Part shown: piece after piece, positions 16,253 to 29,435 of the stretch
Numbering within the stretch: the stretch's first letter is position 1
Layout of the letters: the number at the start of each line of letters is the position of its first letter
From: a virus
IMG/VR virus record: IMGVR_UViG_3300030116_001053
Coordinates: 1 to 29,475 of that record
Strand: one strand, 5' to 3'
DNA length: 29,475 nt
Made by a program: the position numbers and the translations under genes
The notes under the pieces: generated by a model
The model's input: only the letters and a program-made list of their open reading frames with translations
The model's database searches: none
What the model was told of the DNA's origin: nothing

Positions 16253-17899
16253 ATGGCAGCAACATATGTAAATAATTTAAGAGTAGCAGAGCCAGCAGAC
16301 GGCGACACAAACTGGGGTAACACTACTAATACTTCGTTAGAACTTATTGGTGAAGCACTTGGTGTTGGTACAGAAGCAATTACGACCAATGCGGATACAC
16401 ATACCTCAACAGTTGCGGATGGCTCTTCTGATCAAGCAAGAGCTTTTCATTTAAAGTACACAGGTACTTTAGATTCTAACTGCACGGTAACGATTGGCCC
16501 GAATACAATGAAGCGGGTTCAAATCATAGAGAATGCAACTACTGGAGGCTATTCTCTTATTATCAGCCAAGGCAGTGGCGATAACGTCACCATATTGGCA
16601 GGTACTAAAAAGATTGTTTACCTCGACGGTGCTGGATCTGGTGCAGCAGTAGTAGATGTTACGTCTGCTTCTTTTGGCTCTCAGGCTTTTTATGTCCCAT
16701 CTGGAAGCACAGGTAACAGGCCAACGGGTGTTGCTGGAGCTTTTCGTTATAACTCTACATCCGGTGAATTTGAAGGTTATGCAGGTGGTTCTTGGGGAAG
16801 TATTGGGGGAGGCACAGCTAGTACCGCTGTTAATGAATATTCTGGAAACGGTAGCACAACTGCGTTTACTTTATCTTCAGACCCTGGCACAGAAAATAAC
16901 ACACAAGTTTATATAGATGGGGTGTACCAGGAGAAAGGTACATATTCAGTCTCAGGAACTACTCTGACATTTAGCACTGCTCCTCCTAATGGAACTAGTG
17001 TTGAAGTTTTAGTTAACTCTGTTAGTGACACAGGCACTCCCAGTGACGGCACTGTAACAACTGACAAACTAGCCGATGATGCTGTAACAAGCGCAAAGCT
17101 GGCTCATACCTTAGATGTAGTTACAAGCTTAGGAGTAGGCGGCGGTTCTACAAATGGCGTAAGTATTTCGCAGGGTGCAATAGCCATTAAAAATGGTGGC
17201 GCACAATCATATATTGATTTCTATTGTGAGTCTTCAAACGCCCACTACGCTAGAATTTTAGCCCCTGCACATGCTTCTTTTGCAGGGAACATTACCCTTA
17301 CTTTACCTGCAACAACTGATACCCTAGTTGGTAAAACAACGACTGACACTCTGACCAACAAGACGTTGACATCACCTAAGATTAATGAGGATGTCGCAGT
17401 AACATCAACGGCAACTGAAATAAACTTGCTAGATGGTGTTACGGCTACCACAACAGAGCTTAATTATTTAGACATTACTACTTTAGGAACCACAGAAGCA
17501 TCTAAGGCTGTAACGGCTGATGCTAATGGTGTGGTTAAGTTTGACAACGCGATTACAGAAGAAGCTACATCGTTAACCTCAGGAACAACAGTCGCACTAG
17601 ATGTAAGAGATGGCTCTGTCTTTGAAATCACACTAGCGCACGATATTGGAACTTTTAACTGGTCAAACCATGCTAGTTCAGGCTATGTGTCATCCTTTAT
17701 TCTGAAAGTGGTGCAGGATGGTACAGGCAGCAGAACTATTGCTTGGCCTGACAACACCAACAGCGTCACAGTACGATGGGCAGGAAACACAGCCCCCACG
17801 CTATCGACAGGTGCTGCTGATATTGATGTATTTGTTTTCTTCACCGCAGACGGTGGGACCAACTATTACGGATTTACTGCTGGACAGGACATGCTGTAA
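16253..17899 (+). CDS. Tail fibre protein
   Basis: A 548-aa modular fibre. The N-terminal module (1-135) starts MAATYVNNLRVAEPADGD and ends KIVYLDGAGSGAAVVD; it is paralogous to the N-terminus of the 23920-24657 product and probably the virion-anchoring part. The middle has the spacer GVAGAFRYNSTSGEFEGYAG and a YIDGVYQEKGTYSVSGTTLT unit common in marine phage fibres. A TELN-type repeat (from about 387) then leads into a C-terminal module (about 402-548) ending NYYGFTAGQDML, paralogous to the end of the 19321-20139 product. It has no enzymatic motif. It is the first gene of the fibre island. Confidence 0.85.
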   Translation: MAATYVNNLRVAEPADGDTNWGNTTNTSLELIGEALGVGTEAITTNADTHTSTVADGSSDQARAFHLKYTGTLDSNCTVTIGPNTMKRVQIIENATTGGYSLIISQGSGDNVTILAGTKKIVYLDGAGSGAAVVDVTSASFGSQAFYVPSGSTGNRPTGVAGAFRYNSTSGEFEGYAGGSWGSIGGGTASTAVNEYSGNGSTTAFTLSSDPGTENNTQVYIDGVYQEKGTYSVSGTTLTFSTAPPNGTSVEVLVNSVSDTGTPSDGTVTTDKLADDAVTSAKLAHTLDVVTSLGVGGGSTNGVSISQGAIAIKNGGAQSYIDFYCESSNAHYARILAPAHASFAGNITLTLPATTDTLVGKTTTDTLTNKTLTSPKINEDVAVTSTATEINLLDGVTATTTELNYLDITTLGTTEASKAVTADANGVVKFDNAITEEATSLTSGTTVALDVRDGSVFEITLAHDIGTFNWSNHASSGYVSSFILKVVQDGTGSRTIAWPDNTNSVTVRWAGNTAPTLSTGAADIDVFVFFTADGGTNYYGFTAGQDML

Positions 17900-23919: not shown

Positions 23920-24657
23920 ATGGCAACTTATGACAACGATTTACGTCTTAAAGAAATAACAACTGGTCAGGAATCAGGCACCTGGGGCACAAGCACCAAT
24001 ACGAATCTTAGTTTAATTGCTGAAGCGTTAGGCTATGGTACAGAAGCAGTATTTGATTCTGATGCAAATAAGACTACCACAGTTGCTGATGCCGCAACTG
24101 ATCCAGCAAGATCTATGTATTACAAGGTGACCAGCAGCGCAACATTAAGCGCAACTAGAGAATTAACAATTGCCCCTAACTCTATATCTAGAGTTATGTG
24201 GATTGAAAATGCTACTACGGGATCTCAAACCATTACGATTAAGCAAGGTTCGGGAGCAACGGTTGACATAAACACTGGCAAAACAAAGATTGTTTATCTA
24301 GATGGTGCAGGCAGTAGCGCAGCAGTGGTTGATGCACTGAGTCTTGTCGATACATCAGGTTCAATTGGATTAGATTCAACTGTTAGAACATCTGCTTTTA
24401 CGGCGGTTAAAAACAACAGTTACATGATTGACACAAGTTCTGGCACTTTTGATATTACATTGCCAGCTTCTCCTGCTGTAGGAGATAAAGTCGGCTTTAT
24501 GGATGTGGAAAGTAACTTTGACGTTAACGCAGCAACTTTGTTGAGGAATAGCTCTAAATTATTTAACGCAGCATCAGATGGTACGATTGACATTAAAGGC
24601 TATGCAGGTGTCCTAGTGTATACAGGATCAACGTATGGCTGGATGCCAATGTTCTAA
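23920..24657 (+). CDS. Tail fibre protein (third paralogue, short)
   Basis: A 245-aa protein with CAGGAG before the ATG. Residues 1-138 (MATYDNDLRLKEITTGQESG to KIVYLDGAGSSAAVVD) are paralogous to residues 1-135 of the 16253-17899 fibre. The rest is a different short C-terminal domain with YMIDTSSGTFDITLPASPAV and an end with YTGSTYGWMPMF. It looks like the same anchor module joined to a different tip. It could be a second fibre type or a stub that competes for the same attachment site. Confidence 0.8.
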   Translation: MATYDNDLRLKEITTGQESGTWGTSTNTNLSLIAEALGYGTEAVFDSDANKTTTVADAATDPARSMYYKVTSSATLSATRELTIAPNSISRVMWIENATTGSQTITIKQGSGATVDINTGKTKIVYLDGAGSSAAVVDALSLVDTSGSIGLDSTVRTSAFTAVKNNSYMIDTSSGTFDITLPASPAVGDKVGFMDVESNFDVNAATLLRNSSKLFNAASDGTIDIKGYAGVLVYTGSTYGWMPMF

Positions 24658-24669
24658 GGAGAAATAATT

Positions 24670-25065
24670 ATGGCAGCACTTTCAAGTTTAGTGGCAGGAG
24701 CACCAGCAGTGCAGGTTGGCCATTTCACCACAAACCCCTCAACAGGAACCCAGGCGATTACAGGCATTGGATTTAAACCAAAATGGATAATGGTTGTAGG
24801 TGCTCAAGATACAGCAGCTAGTGCATTAGAGTGCATTTGTGGGTATTACGATGGCACAACTTATTTTACTCACGGCCATACAATCAATAATGCCGCTACC
24901 AGTGTAATTTATCAAAGCACAAATGCCGCTGCTCTTTATCAAGTTTATGATGTTTCTGCAAATAATAATGTTGGAACAGTATCTTCTTTTGATGCAGATG
25001 GTTTTACGATTAATAAAACCTCTGCTAGCAATGAATTAAAAGTTTTTTACATAGTAGGTCGATAA
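24670..25065 (+). CDS. Putative fibre-tip or small virion protein
   Basis: A 131-aa beta-rich protein with AAGGAG (24656-24661) 8 bases before the ATG, one of the best ribosome sites in the fibre island. The core HFTTNPSTGTQAITGIGFKP followed by KWIMVVGAQDT resembles the stand-alone or C-terminal domains found at phage fibre tips. The end has FDADGFTINKTSASNELKVF. It is the last gene before the lysis cassette. Confidence 0.65.
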   Translation: MAALSSLVAGAPAVQVGHFTTNPSTGTQAITGIGFKPKWIMVVGAQDTAASALECICGYYDGTTYFTHGHTINNAATSVIYQSTNAAALYQVYDVSANNNVGTVSSFDADGFTINKTSASNELKVFYIVGR

Positions 25066-25067
25066 GA

Positions 25068-25250
25068 TTGGATAAGCTCGAGTCTCATGAAAAAGAGTGC
25101 GCGTTACGTTTCAAGGCGATAGAAGAACGCCTAGAGCGTGGCAGTGCGCGTATGGATCGTATGGAGGCTCGAATGAATAGTTTGTTTATGGTGACAGTTG
25201 GAGTTTACCCGTTTATTTTAGCATCTGTGTTTCTAGCGCGGTATCTGTGA
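25068..25250 (+). CDS. Small tail-anchored membrane protein, XhlA-like architecture
   Basis: A 60-aa protein beginning with TTG two bases after the upstream stop. The N-terminal 40 residues are a charged amphipathic helix (MDKLESHEKECALRFKAIEE). The C-terminal 20 form one hydrophobic helix with FMVTVGVYPFILASVF. No in-frame ATG precedes the conserved-looking HEKECALR segment, so TTG is the probable start; a nearby ATG (25088) is out of frame. A cytoplasmic coil plus one C-terminal membrane helix is the layout of XhlA-type lysis proteins. It opens the lysis cassette. Family membership is not proven. Confidence 0.65.
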   Translation: MDKLESHEKECALRFKAIEERLERGSARMDRMEARMNSLFMVTVGVYPFILASVFLARYL

Positions 25251-25256
25251 AGACCC

Positions 25257-25718
25257 ATGTTAGAAGTCGCAGCAGTTCTGTCGGCCCTGAAGGCTCTGAA
25301 CGAAGGATTAGCTACCCTCAAGGAAACAGCGGGGCATGGTAAAAGTTTACAAGGGCTGGTTGGTAAATGGGGAGAGGCAACCGAAAAATATAACGATGTA
25401 GAAAGAGCCAAAGCTGGCAAAATGAGCTACAAAGAAGCTCTGGCTATGGAAAGTGCCAAGCGCCAGCTAGAGAACTTTGACAGGCAGTTCAAGGACATAT
25501 GCCTGATTCAAGGTCAAGGAGATCTTTATAATAGTGTTAAAGCTAGGATGCAAGAGTCTCGCATAGCCCACGAAAAAGAAGTTGCAAGGATTAGAAGAAG
25601 AAGGAAAGAGATCAAAGGATACATACAACTTGGTGGCACAATCGCATTCGCATGGGTGTTTTTTATGTGTTGTGTTTGGGCAGTAGTGTGGGTATTGGAG
25701 AACAGCCCCGTTGAATGA
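25257..25718 (+). CDS. Helical protein with C-terminal membrane anchor
   Basis: A 153-aa protein. Residues 1-30 are a hydrophobic/amphipathic helix. Residues about 40-118 are charged and coiled-coil prone. A very basic RIRRRR (111-116) precedes a single transmembrane helix (about 123-146), so by the positive-inside rule the bulk is cytoplasmic. I recall similar proteins before lysozyme genes in marine phages, without assigned function. A lysis regulator or holin partner is possible. The ribosome site is weak; the end overlaps the next gene by ATGA. Confidence 0.7.
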   Translation: MLEVAAVLSALKALNEGLATLKETAGHGKSLQGLVGKWGEATEKYNDVERAKAGKMSYKEALAMESAKRQLENFDRQFKDICLIQGQGDLYNSVKARMQESRIAHEKEVARIRRRRKEIKGYIQLGGTIAFAWVFFMCCVWAVVWVLENSPVE

Positions 25719-25933
25719 TTATAGCCTTCTTATTAGTGGTAATAGTCAGCGGAGAAACTGTTTCTGATAACAGAATGTTGTTTGAAAGCATTTACAGATG
25801 TAATGAGTTTGCCATTGCTATTGAAGAAGGACGAGGTAGTTCAGAGAATATAAAAAGATATAGAATGCAAAATGACATTAGCGCGTACTGTATCCCTAGA
25901 ATGGTGCCAAAAGGAACGGAGTTATTTGAATGA
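25715..25933 (+). CDS. Small exported protein with two cysteines
   Basis: A 72-aa protein with a hydrophobic N-terminus (MIIAFLLVVIVSG) that is either a signal peptide or a membrane anchor. A short charged periplasmic part follows with C29 and C59, which could form a disulfide. It has ATGA overlaps at both ends, with the neighbouring membrane protein and the lipoprotein gene. The pairing of an anchored small protein with an overlapping lipoprotein gene recalls Rz/Rz1 spanins, but the expected coiled coil is not evident. Confidence 0.7.
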   Translation: MIIAFLLVVIVSGETVSDNRMLFESIYRCNEFAIAIEEGRGSSENIKRYRMQNDISAYCIPRMVPKGTELFE

Positions 25934-26121
25934 AAGTAATAGTTTTTATAGCGTTTTTATTTGTATCTAGTTGTTCTTCGATACCGACCTGTGGAACTAA
26001 ATCTGTCAAAATACAAATACCTTCTACAGTTCCTTTTTTTGCAGAACCTTTTGTCATTGAACGATCTAATGATCATGTTGACTGTGCGTTAGATCCCGAT
26101 GAAAGGAATACAAATGATTAG
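25930..26121 (+). CDS. Small lipoprotein, possible outer-membrane spanin subunit
   Basis: A 63-aa protein with a lipoprotein signal: MKVIVFIAFLFVSSC, lipobox VSSC with lipidated C15. The mature part is 49 residues with prolines (IPTCGTKSVKIQIPSTVPFF) and two more cysteines (C21 and C52). Size and location in a lysis region fit an o-spanin, which joins the outer membrane to an inner-membrane partner in Gram-negative lysis. A Gram-negative host is therefore likely. It overlaps the previous gene by 4 bases and the lipase gene by 8. Confidence 0.7.
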   Translation: MKVIVFIAFLFVSSCSSIPTCGTKSVKIQIPSTVPFFAEPFVIERSNDHVDCALDPDERNTND

Positions 26122-26689
26122 TCACCAAGACCTCAGTCATTATTGCGCTGAAAGCTATCGAGAGTCGGACTTTGAAGAAGCTAATATCGAAGTCATTGTC
26201 AGGGAGAATGTATTTGCTTTTCGCGGAACAGATGAACCCAAAGACGCGCTCCGTGATTTGAGAATCCTGCCATTGTGGACACGTGAACTCGGCTGGTGTC
26301 CGGCAGGCTTTCTTAAAGCAAGTCGGCGGCTGGTCAACAAGGTCACCAGTGTTTGTTTAGAGCGAGACATAGACCATAAAAAGATTGAGTTGACAGGCCA
26401 TAGCTTGGGTGGAGCAGTTGCTCTAATCGTTGGTGCTCTGATGACCAGGGATGAGATACCACCGTTACAAATCGTAACATTTGGCGCACCCAGATGTGGA
26501 CGATTAAAGATATTAGACGGGGTTCCAGTGACGCAATACAGACACGGCAAGGATATTGTGCCGTTGGTTCCCCCTCTAATGCGAAGACACACTAAGCTGT
26601 TAGAGTTTGGCAAGCCCGGTAAAAGCCTGATCAAAGATCACTATATGCTTAACTATGTAAAGATGAATAAATCACCGGATCATTACTAA
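26114..26689 (+). CDS. Class 3 lipase-like alpha/beta hydrolase
   Basis: A 191-aa hydrolase. The nucleophile elbow is GHSLGG (95-100, S97); the likely acid is D147 in HGKDIVP and the histidine H176 in KDHY. FAFRGTD (34-40) is the strand and turn typical of class 3 lipases, and ALRDLR and GWCPAGFLKAS follow as in that family. Predicted action is ester hydrolysis of a lipid or lipid-like substrate. It has no signal peptide, so it would stay in the cytoplasm until a holin opens the membrane. The start at 26114 is set by AAGGA 6 bases upstream. It is embedded between a lipoprotein and a holin candidate. The protein is shorter than most secreted lipases and has no visible lid. Confidence 0.85.
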   Translation: MISHQDLSHYCAESYRESDFEEANIEVIVRENVFAFRGTDEPKDALRDLRILPLWTRELGWCPAGFLKASRRLVNKVTSVCLERDIDHKKIELTGHSLGGAVALIVGALMTRDEIPPLQIVTFGAPRCGRLKILDGVPVTQYRHGKDIVPLVPPLMRRHTKLLEFGKPGKSLIKDHYMLNYVKMNKSPDHY

Positions 26690-27018
26690 TGAATCCTAAA
26701 AAACTAGAACCAGAAAGCAGCTACGCTAGATATGACACTGACGGTGACGGTGTGGTGACTGATGATGAGTTGGAGATAAGCGCAAGACTTCAGGAGCTTG
26801 AGATGCTCCATGAAAAGAGTACGGCTCAAAGGAATATGGTTTGGTTCGCCTTATTTGGAATGCTCCTGTACCCGTCTGGCGTAGCTATCTGCTCTTTTTT
26901 AAACATGGACGATGCCGCCGTTCTGCTAAGTGATATGGCAAATATGTATTTTCTGGCGACTGGAGGTGTTGTCAGTGTGTTCTTTGGAAGTCAGGTATTT
27001 GCAGGTAAGAACAAATGA
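26689..27018 (+). CDS. EF-hand protein with two membrane helices, holin candidate
   Basis: A 109-aa protein. Residues 16-27 (DTDGDGVVTDDE) are a textbook EF-hand calcium loop with ligands at D16, D18, D20, V22 (backbone), T24 and E27. A charged helix follows (28-48), then two hydrophobic helices (about 50-70 and 84-104) and a basic end (AGKNK). Two helices plus a soluble N-terminal part, next to a signal-less lysozyme, suit a class II-like holin. The same layout recurs in marine phages as I recall. It has TAATG and ATGA overlaps with the genes on either side. Confidence 0.78.
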   Translation: MNPKKLEPESSYARYDTDGDGVVTDDELEISARLQELEMLHEKSTAQRNMVWFALFGMLLYPSGVAICSFLNMDDAAVLLSDMANMYFLATGGVVSVFFGSQVFAGKNK

Positions 27019-27083
27019 TGGATCTGGCAGTAGGAATGCTACTAGGTTTTTGTATTGGTTACATAGTTGCGAGGTATAGATGA
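27015..27083 (+). CDS. 22-residue single-helix membrane peptide
   Basis: A tiny frame, ATG at 27015 to TGA at 27083, coding MMDLAVGMLLGFCIG and ending VARYR. It has ATGA overlaps on both sides (27015-27018 and 27080-27083) and fills the gap between the holin candidate and the lysozyme exactly. AGGTAAG lies about 6-8 bases upstream. The peptide is one glycine-containing hydrophobic helix with a basic C-terminus, as for a membrane-inserted microprotein or holin regulator. A second ATG (27018) would give 21 residues. Gene prediction programs normally skip frames this short. Confidence 0.6.
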   Translation: MMDLAVGMLLGFCIGYIVARYR

Positions 27084-27571
27084 GCGTTGATGTAACACAA
27101 GTATATGAAGAGATAGCTGCTGACGAAGGAAAGGTATTACATAAGTATCTTTGCTCAGAGTCGCATCCAACCATAGGGATTGGCCATAAGGTTTTAAACA
27201 CTGACGCAGAAGCTAATCTGCCAATCCATGGTGTTTACGATGATGTGCCTGAAGAAGAATGTATTACGGAAGAACGATGTTATGAGCTCTTTCAAAATGA
27301 CATACAATTAGCGATCGATGGATGTAAAAGCTTGTACCATAACTGGGAAGAAATCCCACAAGAAATGCGTCACATCTTGGTTAATATGTGTTTTCAATTA
27401 GGCCGGACTGGACTTAGCCGGTTCAAGAATATGAATGCAGGTGTTGCTCAGGAAGCCTGGGGTATTGTCTCTTTAGAAATGATGGACTCTCGATGGGCGC
27501 AACAAACACCGGAAAGAGCTACACGTTTACGCGATCGTGTTCTAGTAATGATGAATGACTTAGAAGGTTAA
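27080..27571 (+). CDS. T4-type lysozyme endolysin (glycoside hydrolase 24)
   Basis: A 163-aa muramidase that cleaves the peptidoglycan glycan chain at lysis. The catalytic pattern is E16 (ADEGK), then 8 residues, C25, then 5 residues, T31 (PTIGIGH). The usual aspartate at the second position is cysteine, a natural variant of the E-D/C-T triad. The length matches T4 lysozyme (164 aa), and the C-terminal half has LVNMCFQLGRTGLSRFKNM and SRWAQQTPERATRLRDRV, as in the family. It has no signal sequence, so it needs a holin. The ribosome site GAGG (27071-27074) overlaps the micro-ORF. Confidence 0.93.
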   Translation: MSVDVTQVYEEIAADEGKVLHKYLCSESHPTIGIGHKVLNTDAEANLPIHGVYDDVPEEECITEERCYELFQNDIQLAIDGCKSLYHNWEEIPQEMRHILVNMCFQLGRTGLSRFKNMNAGVAQEAWGIVSLEMMDSRWAQQTPERATRLRDRVLVMMNDLEG

Positions 27572-27572
27572 T

Positions 27573-29435
27573 ATGCCATTACAACCTTTAGATTTTAGAC
27601 CAGGGATTAACAAAGAAAGCACAAGCTATACTGCTGAAGGCGGTTGGTTTGATGGCAATCTTGTTCGATTTCGCAAAGGGTTTGCTGAAAAGATAGGCGG
27701 TTGGCAAAAATATGTGTCACCTTCATACGAAGGAACTGGCAGAAAATTACATAATTGGGTCAATCTTGCTGGTACAAAATTGCTTGGATTAGGAACTAGG
27801 CTAAAGTTATATATTCAAGAGGGCAATAGTTACAGTGACATTACGCCAATCAGATTAACTACTGGTGCAGGTGACGTTACGTTTGCTGCTACTAATGGGT
27901 CTTCAACAATCACAGTAACTGATGCTTCACATGGAGCAGTCGCAGATGATTTTGTTACATTCTCTGGGGCAGCAACATTAGGCGGTCTTATTACCGCTGA
28001 TGTTTTAAACCAAGAGTATCAGATCGCAACAGTGCCAACTACTAACACTTATACTATTACCGCTAAAGACACTTCTGGTTCTACAGTTACCGCAAATTCT
28101 AGTGATTCAGGCAATGGGGGCGGATCCACAGTAGGTGCTTATCAAATCAATGTTGGTCTTGATGTCTTCGTTGATGGTACAGGTTGGGGTGTAAACGCTT
28201 GGGGTGACAGCACTTGGGGATCAACTAGTTCCTTGGTTGCTACTAATCAATTACGTTTGTGGTCCATGGATAACTTTGGTGAAGATCTGATTGCCAATCC
28301 TCGAGCAGGCAGTATTTATTATTGGGATAACAGCACAGGCATTTCAACTAGAGCAATACCATTAACATCTTTATCAGGCGCAAACATGGTTCCTACTAAA
28401 GGACTTCAAGTGATTGTGTCTGACGTAGATCGCCATGTCTTGGTGTTAGGCGCAGACCCTATTGAAAACGGTGCAAGAAGTGGCAGCATTGATCCTCTCC
28501 TTATCGCTTTCTCTGACCAGGAGAACGCAGCAGAATGGGAGCCTCGATCAACAAACACGGCTGGTTCGTTACGATGTTCTGCTGGTTCAGAAATTATAGG
28601 TGGCATCAGGGCTAGACAGGAGACATTAATCTGGACTGATGTCGCTTTGTACAGCTTACAGTTTATCGGAACGCCTTTAACTTTTGGCCTTAATCTTGTG
28701 AACGAAGGTGTCACCCTTATCGGGCCAAACTGTGCGGTCAATACACCGGCTGGCATATTCTGGATGGATCGAAAAGGTTTCTATCGTTATGCGGGTACAG
28801 TGCAAAGTGTGCCATGCACAGTACAATCTTATGTTTATGATGACTTTAATCAATCACAGTCTTATCAGTTCTTTGGGTATGTTAATAAAGAGTTTGATGA
28901 GGTTGGCTGGTTTTATTGCTCTTCCGGCTCAGACTCTATTGATCGTTATGTTACTTATAACTATGAAGAAAACAGTTGGGCAATTGGACAGTTATCCAGA
29001 ACTGCCTGGGTTGATGAAGGTATTTTCGCAAACCCAATAGCAGCGGGTAAGAGTAGCAGCACACCATACTTGTATAGCCATGAAATCGGTAACGATGACG
29101 ATGGTTCTGCCATGACATCTGTGTATATCCAATCAGGCGATTTTGATTTAGGTGATGGCGAAGATTTTCAGTTTATTAAACGCATGATTCCAGACGTTAA
29201 ATTTACTGGATCGGGCGGTAGCGGTCAGGCCATCAGCGCAGTCTTAAAAGTTAGAAACTATCCTGGTGATTCATTTACTACAGATCAGACTACATCGTTT
29301 ACAGGTAGCACAACAAAGATAGATATGAGGGCCAGAGGCAGGCAAGCCGCTTTGCGGTTTGAGGCTGAAGATTCTGGCGTTGGCTTTAGATTAGGTCGAA
29401 ACAGGCTAGATATGCAGCCTAATGGTAAGCGTTAA
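27573..29435 (+). CDS. Putative tail nozzle/hub protein, P22 gp10-like
   Basis: A 620-aa virion protein beginning MPLQPLDFRPGINKESTSYT. The segment AEGGWFDGNLVRFRKGFAEK followed by IGGW is a pattern I know from large tail proteins of short-tailed phages related to P22 gp10 (tail stabilisation). Residues about 95-190 contain an Ig-like Thr/Val-rich insert (FAATNGSSTITVTDASHGAV). The rest is a repetitive beta sequence suggestive of a propeller (LRLWSMDNFGEDLIANPRAG onward). GAAGG precedes the ATG. Being separated from the other neck genes by fibres and lysis genes is unusual. The gp10 relation is by pattern and should be tested. Confidence 0.7.
   Translation: MPLQPLDFRPGINKESTSYTAEGGWFDGNLVRFRKGFAEKIGGWQKYVSPSYEGTGRKLHNWVNLAGTKLLGLGTRLKLYIQEGNSYSDITPIRLTTGAGDVTFAATNGSSTITVTDASHGAVADDFVTFSGAATLGGLITADVLNQEYQIATVPTTNTYTITAKDTSGSTVTANSSDSGNGGGSTVGAYQINVGLDVFVDGTGWGVNAWGDSTWGSTSSLVATNQLRLWSMDNFGEDLIANPRAGSIYYWDNSTGISTRAIPLTSLSGANMVPTKGLQVIVSDVDRHVLVLGADPIENGARSGSIDPLLIAFSDQENAAEWEPRSTNTAGSLRCSAGSEIIGGIRARQETLIWTDVALYSLQFIGTPLTFGLNLVNEGVTLIGPNCAVNTPAGIFWMDRKGFYRYAGTVQSVPCTVQSYVYDDFNQSQSYQFFGYVNKEFDEVGWFYCSSGSDSIDRYVTYNYEENSWAIGQLSRTAWVDEGIFANPIAAGKSSSTPYLYSHEIGNDDDGSAMTSVYIQSGDFDLGDGEDFQFIKRMIPDVKFTGSGGSGQAISAVLKVRNYPGDSFTTDQTTSFTGSTTKIDMRARGRQAALRFEAEDSGVGFRLGRNRLDMQPNGKR

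Follow-up and report, generated by a model that had tools for sequence, protein, structure and literature searches.

The viral contig examined here (IMG/VR record IMGVR_UViG_3300030116_001053; 29,475 bases, referred to as the window) carries eight co-directional genes, g1 to g8, at positions 25068-27571, among them a putative endolysin (g8) and several small membrane proteins. These genes very probably constitute the late lysis operon of a tailed marine phage. An earlier sequence-only reading had proposed a lysis operon with a lipase among its genes, and the company and position of the genes support this well, lysis activity being putative for each gene. Its further suggestion, that the set could attack inner membrane, wall and outer membrane in turn, is conjectural. 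Comparison with relatives singles out a predicted lipoprotein-lipase pair, g4 (25930-26121, + strand, 63 amino acids (aa)) and g5 (26114-26689, + strand, 191 aa), as the distinctive element of the cassette. We tentatively propose, with a confidence that stops a little short of even, that this unit does, or helps with, the outer-membrane step of lysis.

The slot occupied by the pair is exchanged among relatives. In the 68 distinct cassettes that hold g6, g8 and one of g1-g3, it contained g4 plus lipase (33 cassettes), Rz/Rz1 plus lipase (6), Rz/Rz1 alone (3), the gene transfer agent (GTA)-type holin PF11351 (18) or none of these (8). The Rz/Rz1 proteins are genuine spanins, matching PHROG_739 at 3e-12 and PHROG_812 at 2e-14. 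g4 was never accompanied by Rz/Rz1 (0/33), and every one of the 39 lipase cassettes had g4 or Rz1. As g1, g2, g3 and g6 are also present in relatives with ordinary spanins or the GTA-type holin, we read them from these comparisons as general cassette parts and not as the new element.

PF11351 was absent from all 39 lipase cassettes and present in 18 of the 29 others (Fisher 3e-9, a figure that overstates the association, the cassettes being clade-clustered); in whole records, it was found in 0/8 lipase-positive and 4/4 lipase-negative ones. More telling than the Fisher figure are the swaps within one lysozyme clade (L073, L098, L099, L101, L104 and L119; Shimodaira-Hasegawa-like approximate likelihood ratio test (SH-aLRT) 99), where the slot holds Rz/Rz1 plus lipase, nothing detected, PF11351 or Rz/Rz1. 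The mutual exclusion of lipase and PF11351, as well as the lack of a signal peptide on the lipase, would fit an enzyme that replaces the holin, degrading the inner membrane from the cytosol and thereby releasing the lysozyme. We consider this very improbable: the exclusion is clade-clustered on the lysozyme tree and was for that reason rejected as proof of an enzymatic holin, some Rz/Rz1-type cassettes have neither lipase nor PF11351, g6, g1, g2 and g7 are all holin candidates, and it is difficult to see how lysis could be timed with a lipase free in the cytosol.

g5 belongs to the class-3 lipases (PF01764, 62.2 bits against a cut-off of 22) and, with g8 (PF00959), is one of only two cassette genes with an assigned family. 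Its catalytic triad, S97 (within GHSLGG), D147 and H176, is invariant in 22 diverse sequences. The confident model (predicted local distance difference test (pLDDT) 88.7) confirms the fold, with the Rhizomucor lipase and plant phospholipases A1 as nearest PDB folds. No LysB-type family, cutinase or other, was among the Pfam matches of g5, and no signal peptide was found. For this gene, a lipase already in the sequence-only reading, 26114 and not 26099 is most likely the true start, based on the AAAGGA upstream and on relatives that begin M[TI]SHQ. A genome collection scanned for lipase hosts contained none but distant lipases, at about 28-41% over their best segments, and a host could not be assigned from them.

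g4, described earlier as a lipoprotein, does contain a lipobox, VSSC, followed by Ser; no other credible lipobox gene was found in the window. Its copies share the motif PFxxxxFxIxRSxDHVDC, and in the alignment the lipidated Cys is followed by Ser, Gly or Ala. Residues of this kind at position +2 direct a lipoprotein to the outer membrane under the Lol rule of E. coli, and g4 is therefore predicted to be an outer-membrane lipoprotein. The lipobox and the +2 residue would thus give g4 the character of the outer-membrane subunit of a two-component spanin; a second hydrophobic segment, which with a lipobox would make a unimolecular spanin (lipobox plus C-terminal helix), is absent.

It is accordingly conceivable that g4 serves as o-spanin in a two-component spanin of divergent type, with g3 or another cassette protein as inner-membrane partner, and that the lipase is an accessory that only speeds lysis. 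g4 is a short lipoprotein of outer-membrane type in the Rz1 position, it overlaps g3 and it excludes Rz/Rz1; the g8-g2-g3-g4 cassettes without an adjacent lipase resemble a series of endolysin, membrane protein, g3 and o-spanin. Some g4 copies match the o-spanin family PHROG_812, weakly (E about 4e-4) and mostly over the signal part; these signal-like matches were the only spanin matches for the cassette or its g4 copies, none to PHROG_739 being found, and the window g4 itself had no match below 0.1 to the spanin PHROGs. Recognisable spanin genes, a usual component of phage lysis cassettes, were thus not found in this one. No i-spanin-shaped gene, N-anchored with a periplasmic coiled coil, was detected in the window or in a 57.9-kilobase (kb) relative: g1 and g2 are C-terminally anchored, and g3 is short. 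g3 moreover occurs alongside Rz/Rz1 as well as in cassettes devoid of any lipoprotein, and L041-type loci keep g4 but not g3. On these grounds, we regard the o-spanin explanation as unlikely.

The properties of g3 (25715-25933, + strand, 72 aa) are also against a role as the partner. The protein, which has two conserved Cys at positions 29 and 59, was said to be exported. However, no K/R precedes the hydrophobic stretch in the window copy and in 13/14 aligned copies, and the stretch spans no more than 11-12 residues, which the model (pLDDT about 92) folds as a beta strand; export is therefore doubtful. The model suggests that g3 is more likely a small strand-helix-strand domain, for which a fold search returned nothing significant; neither an exported protein nor an i-spanin is supported. 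Another candidate partner, a 164-aa N-anchored coiled-coil protein of the L041-type loci, was rejected as not dedicated to g4, since it also stands beside Rz/Rz1 (L152) in other phages. In these loci, which have no g2-g3, it stands upstream of g1 together with a membrane peptide of 53 aa (PHROG_9685) that comes after it (L041:1150-1815 and like loci).

The 57.9-kb relative (G001, the record of L033) may be nearly complete. Its g4 is the sole credible lipoprotein gene, the lipobox being caught by the g4 profile and not by the lipobox pattern, and most of its small membrane-type proteins lie in the cassette. Profile searches, which can miss divergent spanins, found neither a spanin of PHROG_739/812 nor a PF11351 holin in this record, and it has no gene for an N-anchored coiled-coil protein that could be an i-spanin. 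In a second relative (G015, 19.9 kb; L180/L476/L481), the operon is split: lipase, g6 and a g1-like gene stand behind a tail gene in one place (L481:3202-4322), and g8-g2-g3-g4 about 15 kb away on the same contig (L481:18555-19870). The same components persist though they are non-adjacent, as expected for parts working together. This is one example; four other g8-g2-g3-g4 loci, on short contigs, show no lipase.

All eight open reading frames are present, and the block is a conserved set of genuine genes. With the lipase as query, IMG/VR yielded 79 loci, whose best segments are in nearly every case 68-98% identical, and the order g1-g2-g3-g4-g5-g6-(g7)-g8 is seen in most of these marine viral loci; further scans with g4, g6 and g8 added cassettes irrespective of the lipase. 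The conservation check proposed with the sequence-only reading thus showed order and content to be kept, with modular swaps. That the genes are real follows from their low median ratios of nonsynonymous to synonymous substitution (dN/dS) against relatives: 0.08 for g1, 0.05 for g2, 0.07 for g3, 0.26 for g4, 0.07 for g5, 0.05 for g6 and 0.12 for g8, so that all genes but g7 are clearly under purifying selection. For g7, of only 22 codons, the median is 0.25 with a range up to 1.1, and its reality rests mainly on conservation in relatives, being kept, as a 22-aa peptide, in about 28 loci.

g8 (27080-27571, + strand, 163 aa) was correctly recognised as a lysozyme. It is a T4-type endolysin (PF00959 at 5.8e-9, PHROG_7 at 2.7e-12) that keeps the catalytic E16-C25-T31 triad, and it has neither an export signal nor a membrane segment. 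A cytosolic endolysin of this kind needs a holin. The first candidate is g6 (26689-27018, + strand, 109 aa), a putative holin or lysis regulator with two transmembrane helices and a complete, conserved 12-residue EF-hand loop, DTDGDGVVTDDE. The loop of the proposed EF-hand membrane protein is intact, but the Pfam EF-hand profiles score below threshold (15.5 bits against 25.4), as does Phage_holin_3_6 (15 bits, cut-off 28.4). In the T4-like marine phages Melnitz-3 and HTVC008M, the g6 homologue, likewise with two helices and an EF-hand loop, is flanked by baseplate-hub and tape-measure genes and lies away from lysis genes (L085:3402-3731 and L086:3402-3734); the role of g6 may be broader than lysis. 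In several loci, a zinc-ribbon-like small protein (CxxC...CxxC) is inserted around g6/g7 (L008:4420-4566, L029:3057-3218, L069:2328-2525 and L070:6923-7120).

The two proteins predicted to be tail-anchored, g1 and g2, have a single helix each, at the C-terminus. g1 (25068-25250, + strand, 60 aa, TTG start) is a coiled-coil protein with the motif HExECALRFKxIEERLERG. It resembles XhlA in shape only, with no match to the XhlA haemolysin family (PF10779) in Pfam. Its profile matches the protein directly upstream of, and overlapping, the endolysin of Shewanella phage vB_Sb_QDWS (9e-21), and g1-type proteins are found near endolysin genes in unrelated phages. g2 (25257-25718, + strand, 153 aa) has a long cytoplasmic helical part; no family match was obtained with Pfam or PHROG profiles, and no homologue was found in phage records. 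The microprotein g7 (27015-27083, + strand, 22 aa) is a conserved single helix of 20-22 aa with the motif GhxxGYhhG[KR] in most copies, and is an optional member of the cassette.

Lipoprotein-lipase pairs were also found in other phages. Identity to g5 is about 30% for the lipases of Burkholderia-type prophages and of phages BgManors32 and vB_Sb_QDWS. In a scan centred on the Burkholderia-type prophage lipases, a lipoprotein gene ended at the lipase start in 38 of 56 distinct viral loci and in 0/79 bacterial chromosomal lipases, against a background of 2-6% of genes; the lipobox rule was our own regular expression, and loci within groups are related. The Burkholderia-type pairs have overlapping stop and start codons and lie towards the 3' border of the late genes (L089:3456-4513, L091:3528-4657, about 38 loci), near integrase or excisionase genes; the lipoprotein tested had no PHROG match. 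In the marine group, L382 has a third, unrelated lipoprotein family in place of g4. The lipoproteins that partner the lipases are thus unrelated to one another (g4 of the marine group, Rz1, the L382 type and the Burkholderia-type prophage types), and because loci within groups are related, the pairs probably represent about four lipoprotein types and not 76 events. Spanin-free outer-membrane breakage in some phages of Gram-negative hosts, in which a cytosolic class-3 lipase would be freed with the endolysin, be guided or activated by an outer-membrane lipoprotein and dissolve the membrane enzymatically, the pair having been assembled more than once, is possible but on balance doubtful.

The mobility of the pair would also suit cargo, for example for superinfection exclusion through an outer-membrane lipoprotein or for host-lipid remodelling during infection. 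Besides the position of the Burkholderia-type pairs, the lipase of P-SSM2 lies away from lysis genes, and one remote copy of g4 matches the exclusion lipoprotein Cor marginally (E 0.089). The marine pair, however, is inside the lysis operon, linked by overlapping start and stop codons and beside g6 and g8, and the lipase stays next to g6 even in the split operon. We therefore judge cargo to be a distinctly unlikely explanation.

For the window phage, we propose the following sequence of events. g8 would wait in the cytosol, and a small membrane protein, g6 being the first candidate and g1, g2 and g7 the others, would permeabilise the inner membrane. The same opening would release the cytosolic lipase g5, and g8 would cut the wall. 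g4 would have been lipidated and sorted to the outer membrane, where g5 would hydrolyse (phospho)lipid esters and g4 would anchor it, activate it or destabilise the membrane. The two would act in the slot where relatives hold Rz/Rz1. The timing, the identity of the holin, the substrate, the cooperation of g4 with g5 and the membrane attacked are what we infer within this proposal.

Several points weigh against it. On the lysozyme tree, the g4 plus lipase state needs only two changes, and the cassette counts are not independent events. Six cassettes hold both Rz/Rz1 and lipase, which speaks against a plain replacement of spanins by the lipase. No outer-membrane gene was detected in the PF11351 cassettes either; the absence of spanins is not peculiar to lipase phages. 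g4 lacks an adjacent lipase in five loci, in four of which no lipase was found on the short fragment records. The substrate of g5, taken here to be membrane lipid, could also be of another kind, and the activity of every cassette gene is a prediction from sequence.

The cassette is bordered by a 131-aa protein of the tail/fibre block (24670-25065, + strand) and by a virion structural protein (PHROG_3287; 27573-29435, + strand). This location, and the presence of tail lysozymes (PHROG_13211) among the relatives of g8, would be in keeping with lysozyme and lipase being virion entry parts of a tail module. Such a role is hardly plausible given the freestanding 163-aa lysozyme, the spanins in the same slot of relatives and the small membrane proteins throughout. 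Junctions from g1 to g8 comprise a 6-nucleotide (nt) gap followed by overlaps of 4, 4, 8, 1, 4 and 4 nt. The overlapping packing noted earlier is therefore present (6/7 junctions) but only moderately special, as 10/30 junctions elsewhere in the window also overlap, and it was dropped as a mark of a special system. Scans for promoters and terminators gave sites below and slightly above chance, respectively, none informative, and a DNA-level search of phage records gave no match. The terminase shares 57-60% identity with its counterparts in Pelagibacter phages HTVC023P and HTVC027P, phage 023Pt_psg01 and phage DSL-LC04, and the window phage is therefore probably a marine tailed phage, distant kin of the HTVC023P type. 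Two further window proteins (16253-17899 and 23920-24657) have similar N-terminal regions (NLRVAEPADGDTNWGNTTNTSLELIGEALG and DLRLKEITTGQESGTWGTSTNTNLSLIAEALG), apparently a duplicated tail/fibre module.

The cassette bears on the open question of how phages without spanins get through the outer membrane; in a survey of 677 phages, no spanin was found in 91 (PMC6139136). A lipase with a lipoprotein in the spanin position offers a concrete and testable answer for one marine group. In the literature searched, which left out most subscription journals, there was no report of a lipase in the lysis cassette of a Gram-negative phage.

Among known systems, the holin-endolysin-spanin cassettes of the lambda S-R-Rz/Rz1 type (PMC6139136) are alike in that their late genes are clustered and overlap, and in having an endolysin, small membrane proteins and an outer-membrane-type lipoprotein. 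The window cassette shares with them an endolysin with catalytic residues but has no recognised holin family or spanin pair, and it adds a class-3 lipase. Burkholderia phage BgManors32 and Shewanella phage vB_Sb_QDWS also have a tail-anchored coiled-coil gene with the endolysin, and a holin-like gene followed by an overlapping lipoprotein-lipase pair; there, the endolysin and lipoprotein families are different and tail genes separate the pair from the endolysin. In Roseobacter phages, a g6 homologue has as its neighbour an N-anchored coiled-coil protein (CRP-207) or a PF11351-like holin and a GH108 endolysin (CRP-810), with no lipase or g4 detected. CRP-207 gp73 (L083:3292-3873), an N-anchored coiled-coil protein labelled 'putative lysozyme', has no lysozyme domain in Pfam and is probably mis-annotated. 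Colicin lysis lipoproteins and phospholipase A also combine a small lipoprotein with a phospholipase on the outer membrane, a likeness in principle, the phospholipase being the host's. In mycobacteriophages, LysA/LysB cassettes place beside the endolysin a lipolytic hydrolase proposed to attack the outermost lipids in a third step, which is done by LysB in Ms6 (PMC5707550). The window cassette differs in its Lipase_3 family (PF01764), presumed Gram-negative host, lipoprotein partner and lack of a mycolyl ester target. If the proposal is true, the LysB principle would extend to Gram-negative hosts, and a new kind of outer-membrane-active enzyme would be suggested; by analogy, the best reading of the g4-g5 unit is that of a Gram-negative counterpart of mycobacteriophage LysB, the system that it would most resemble in its working.

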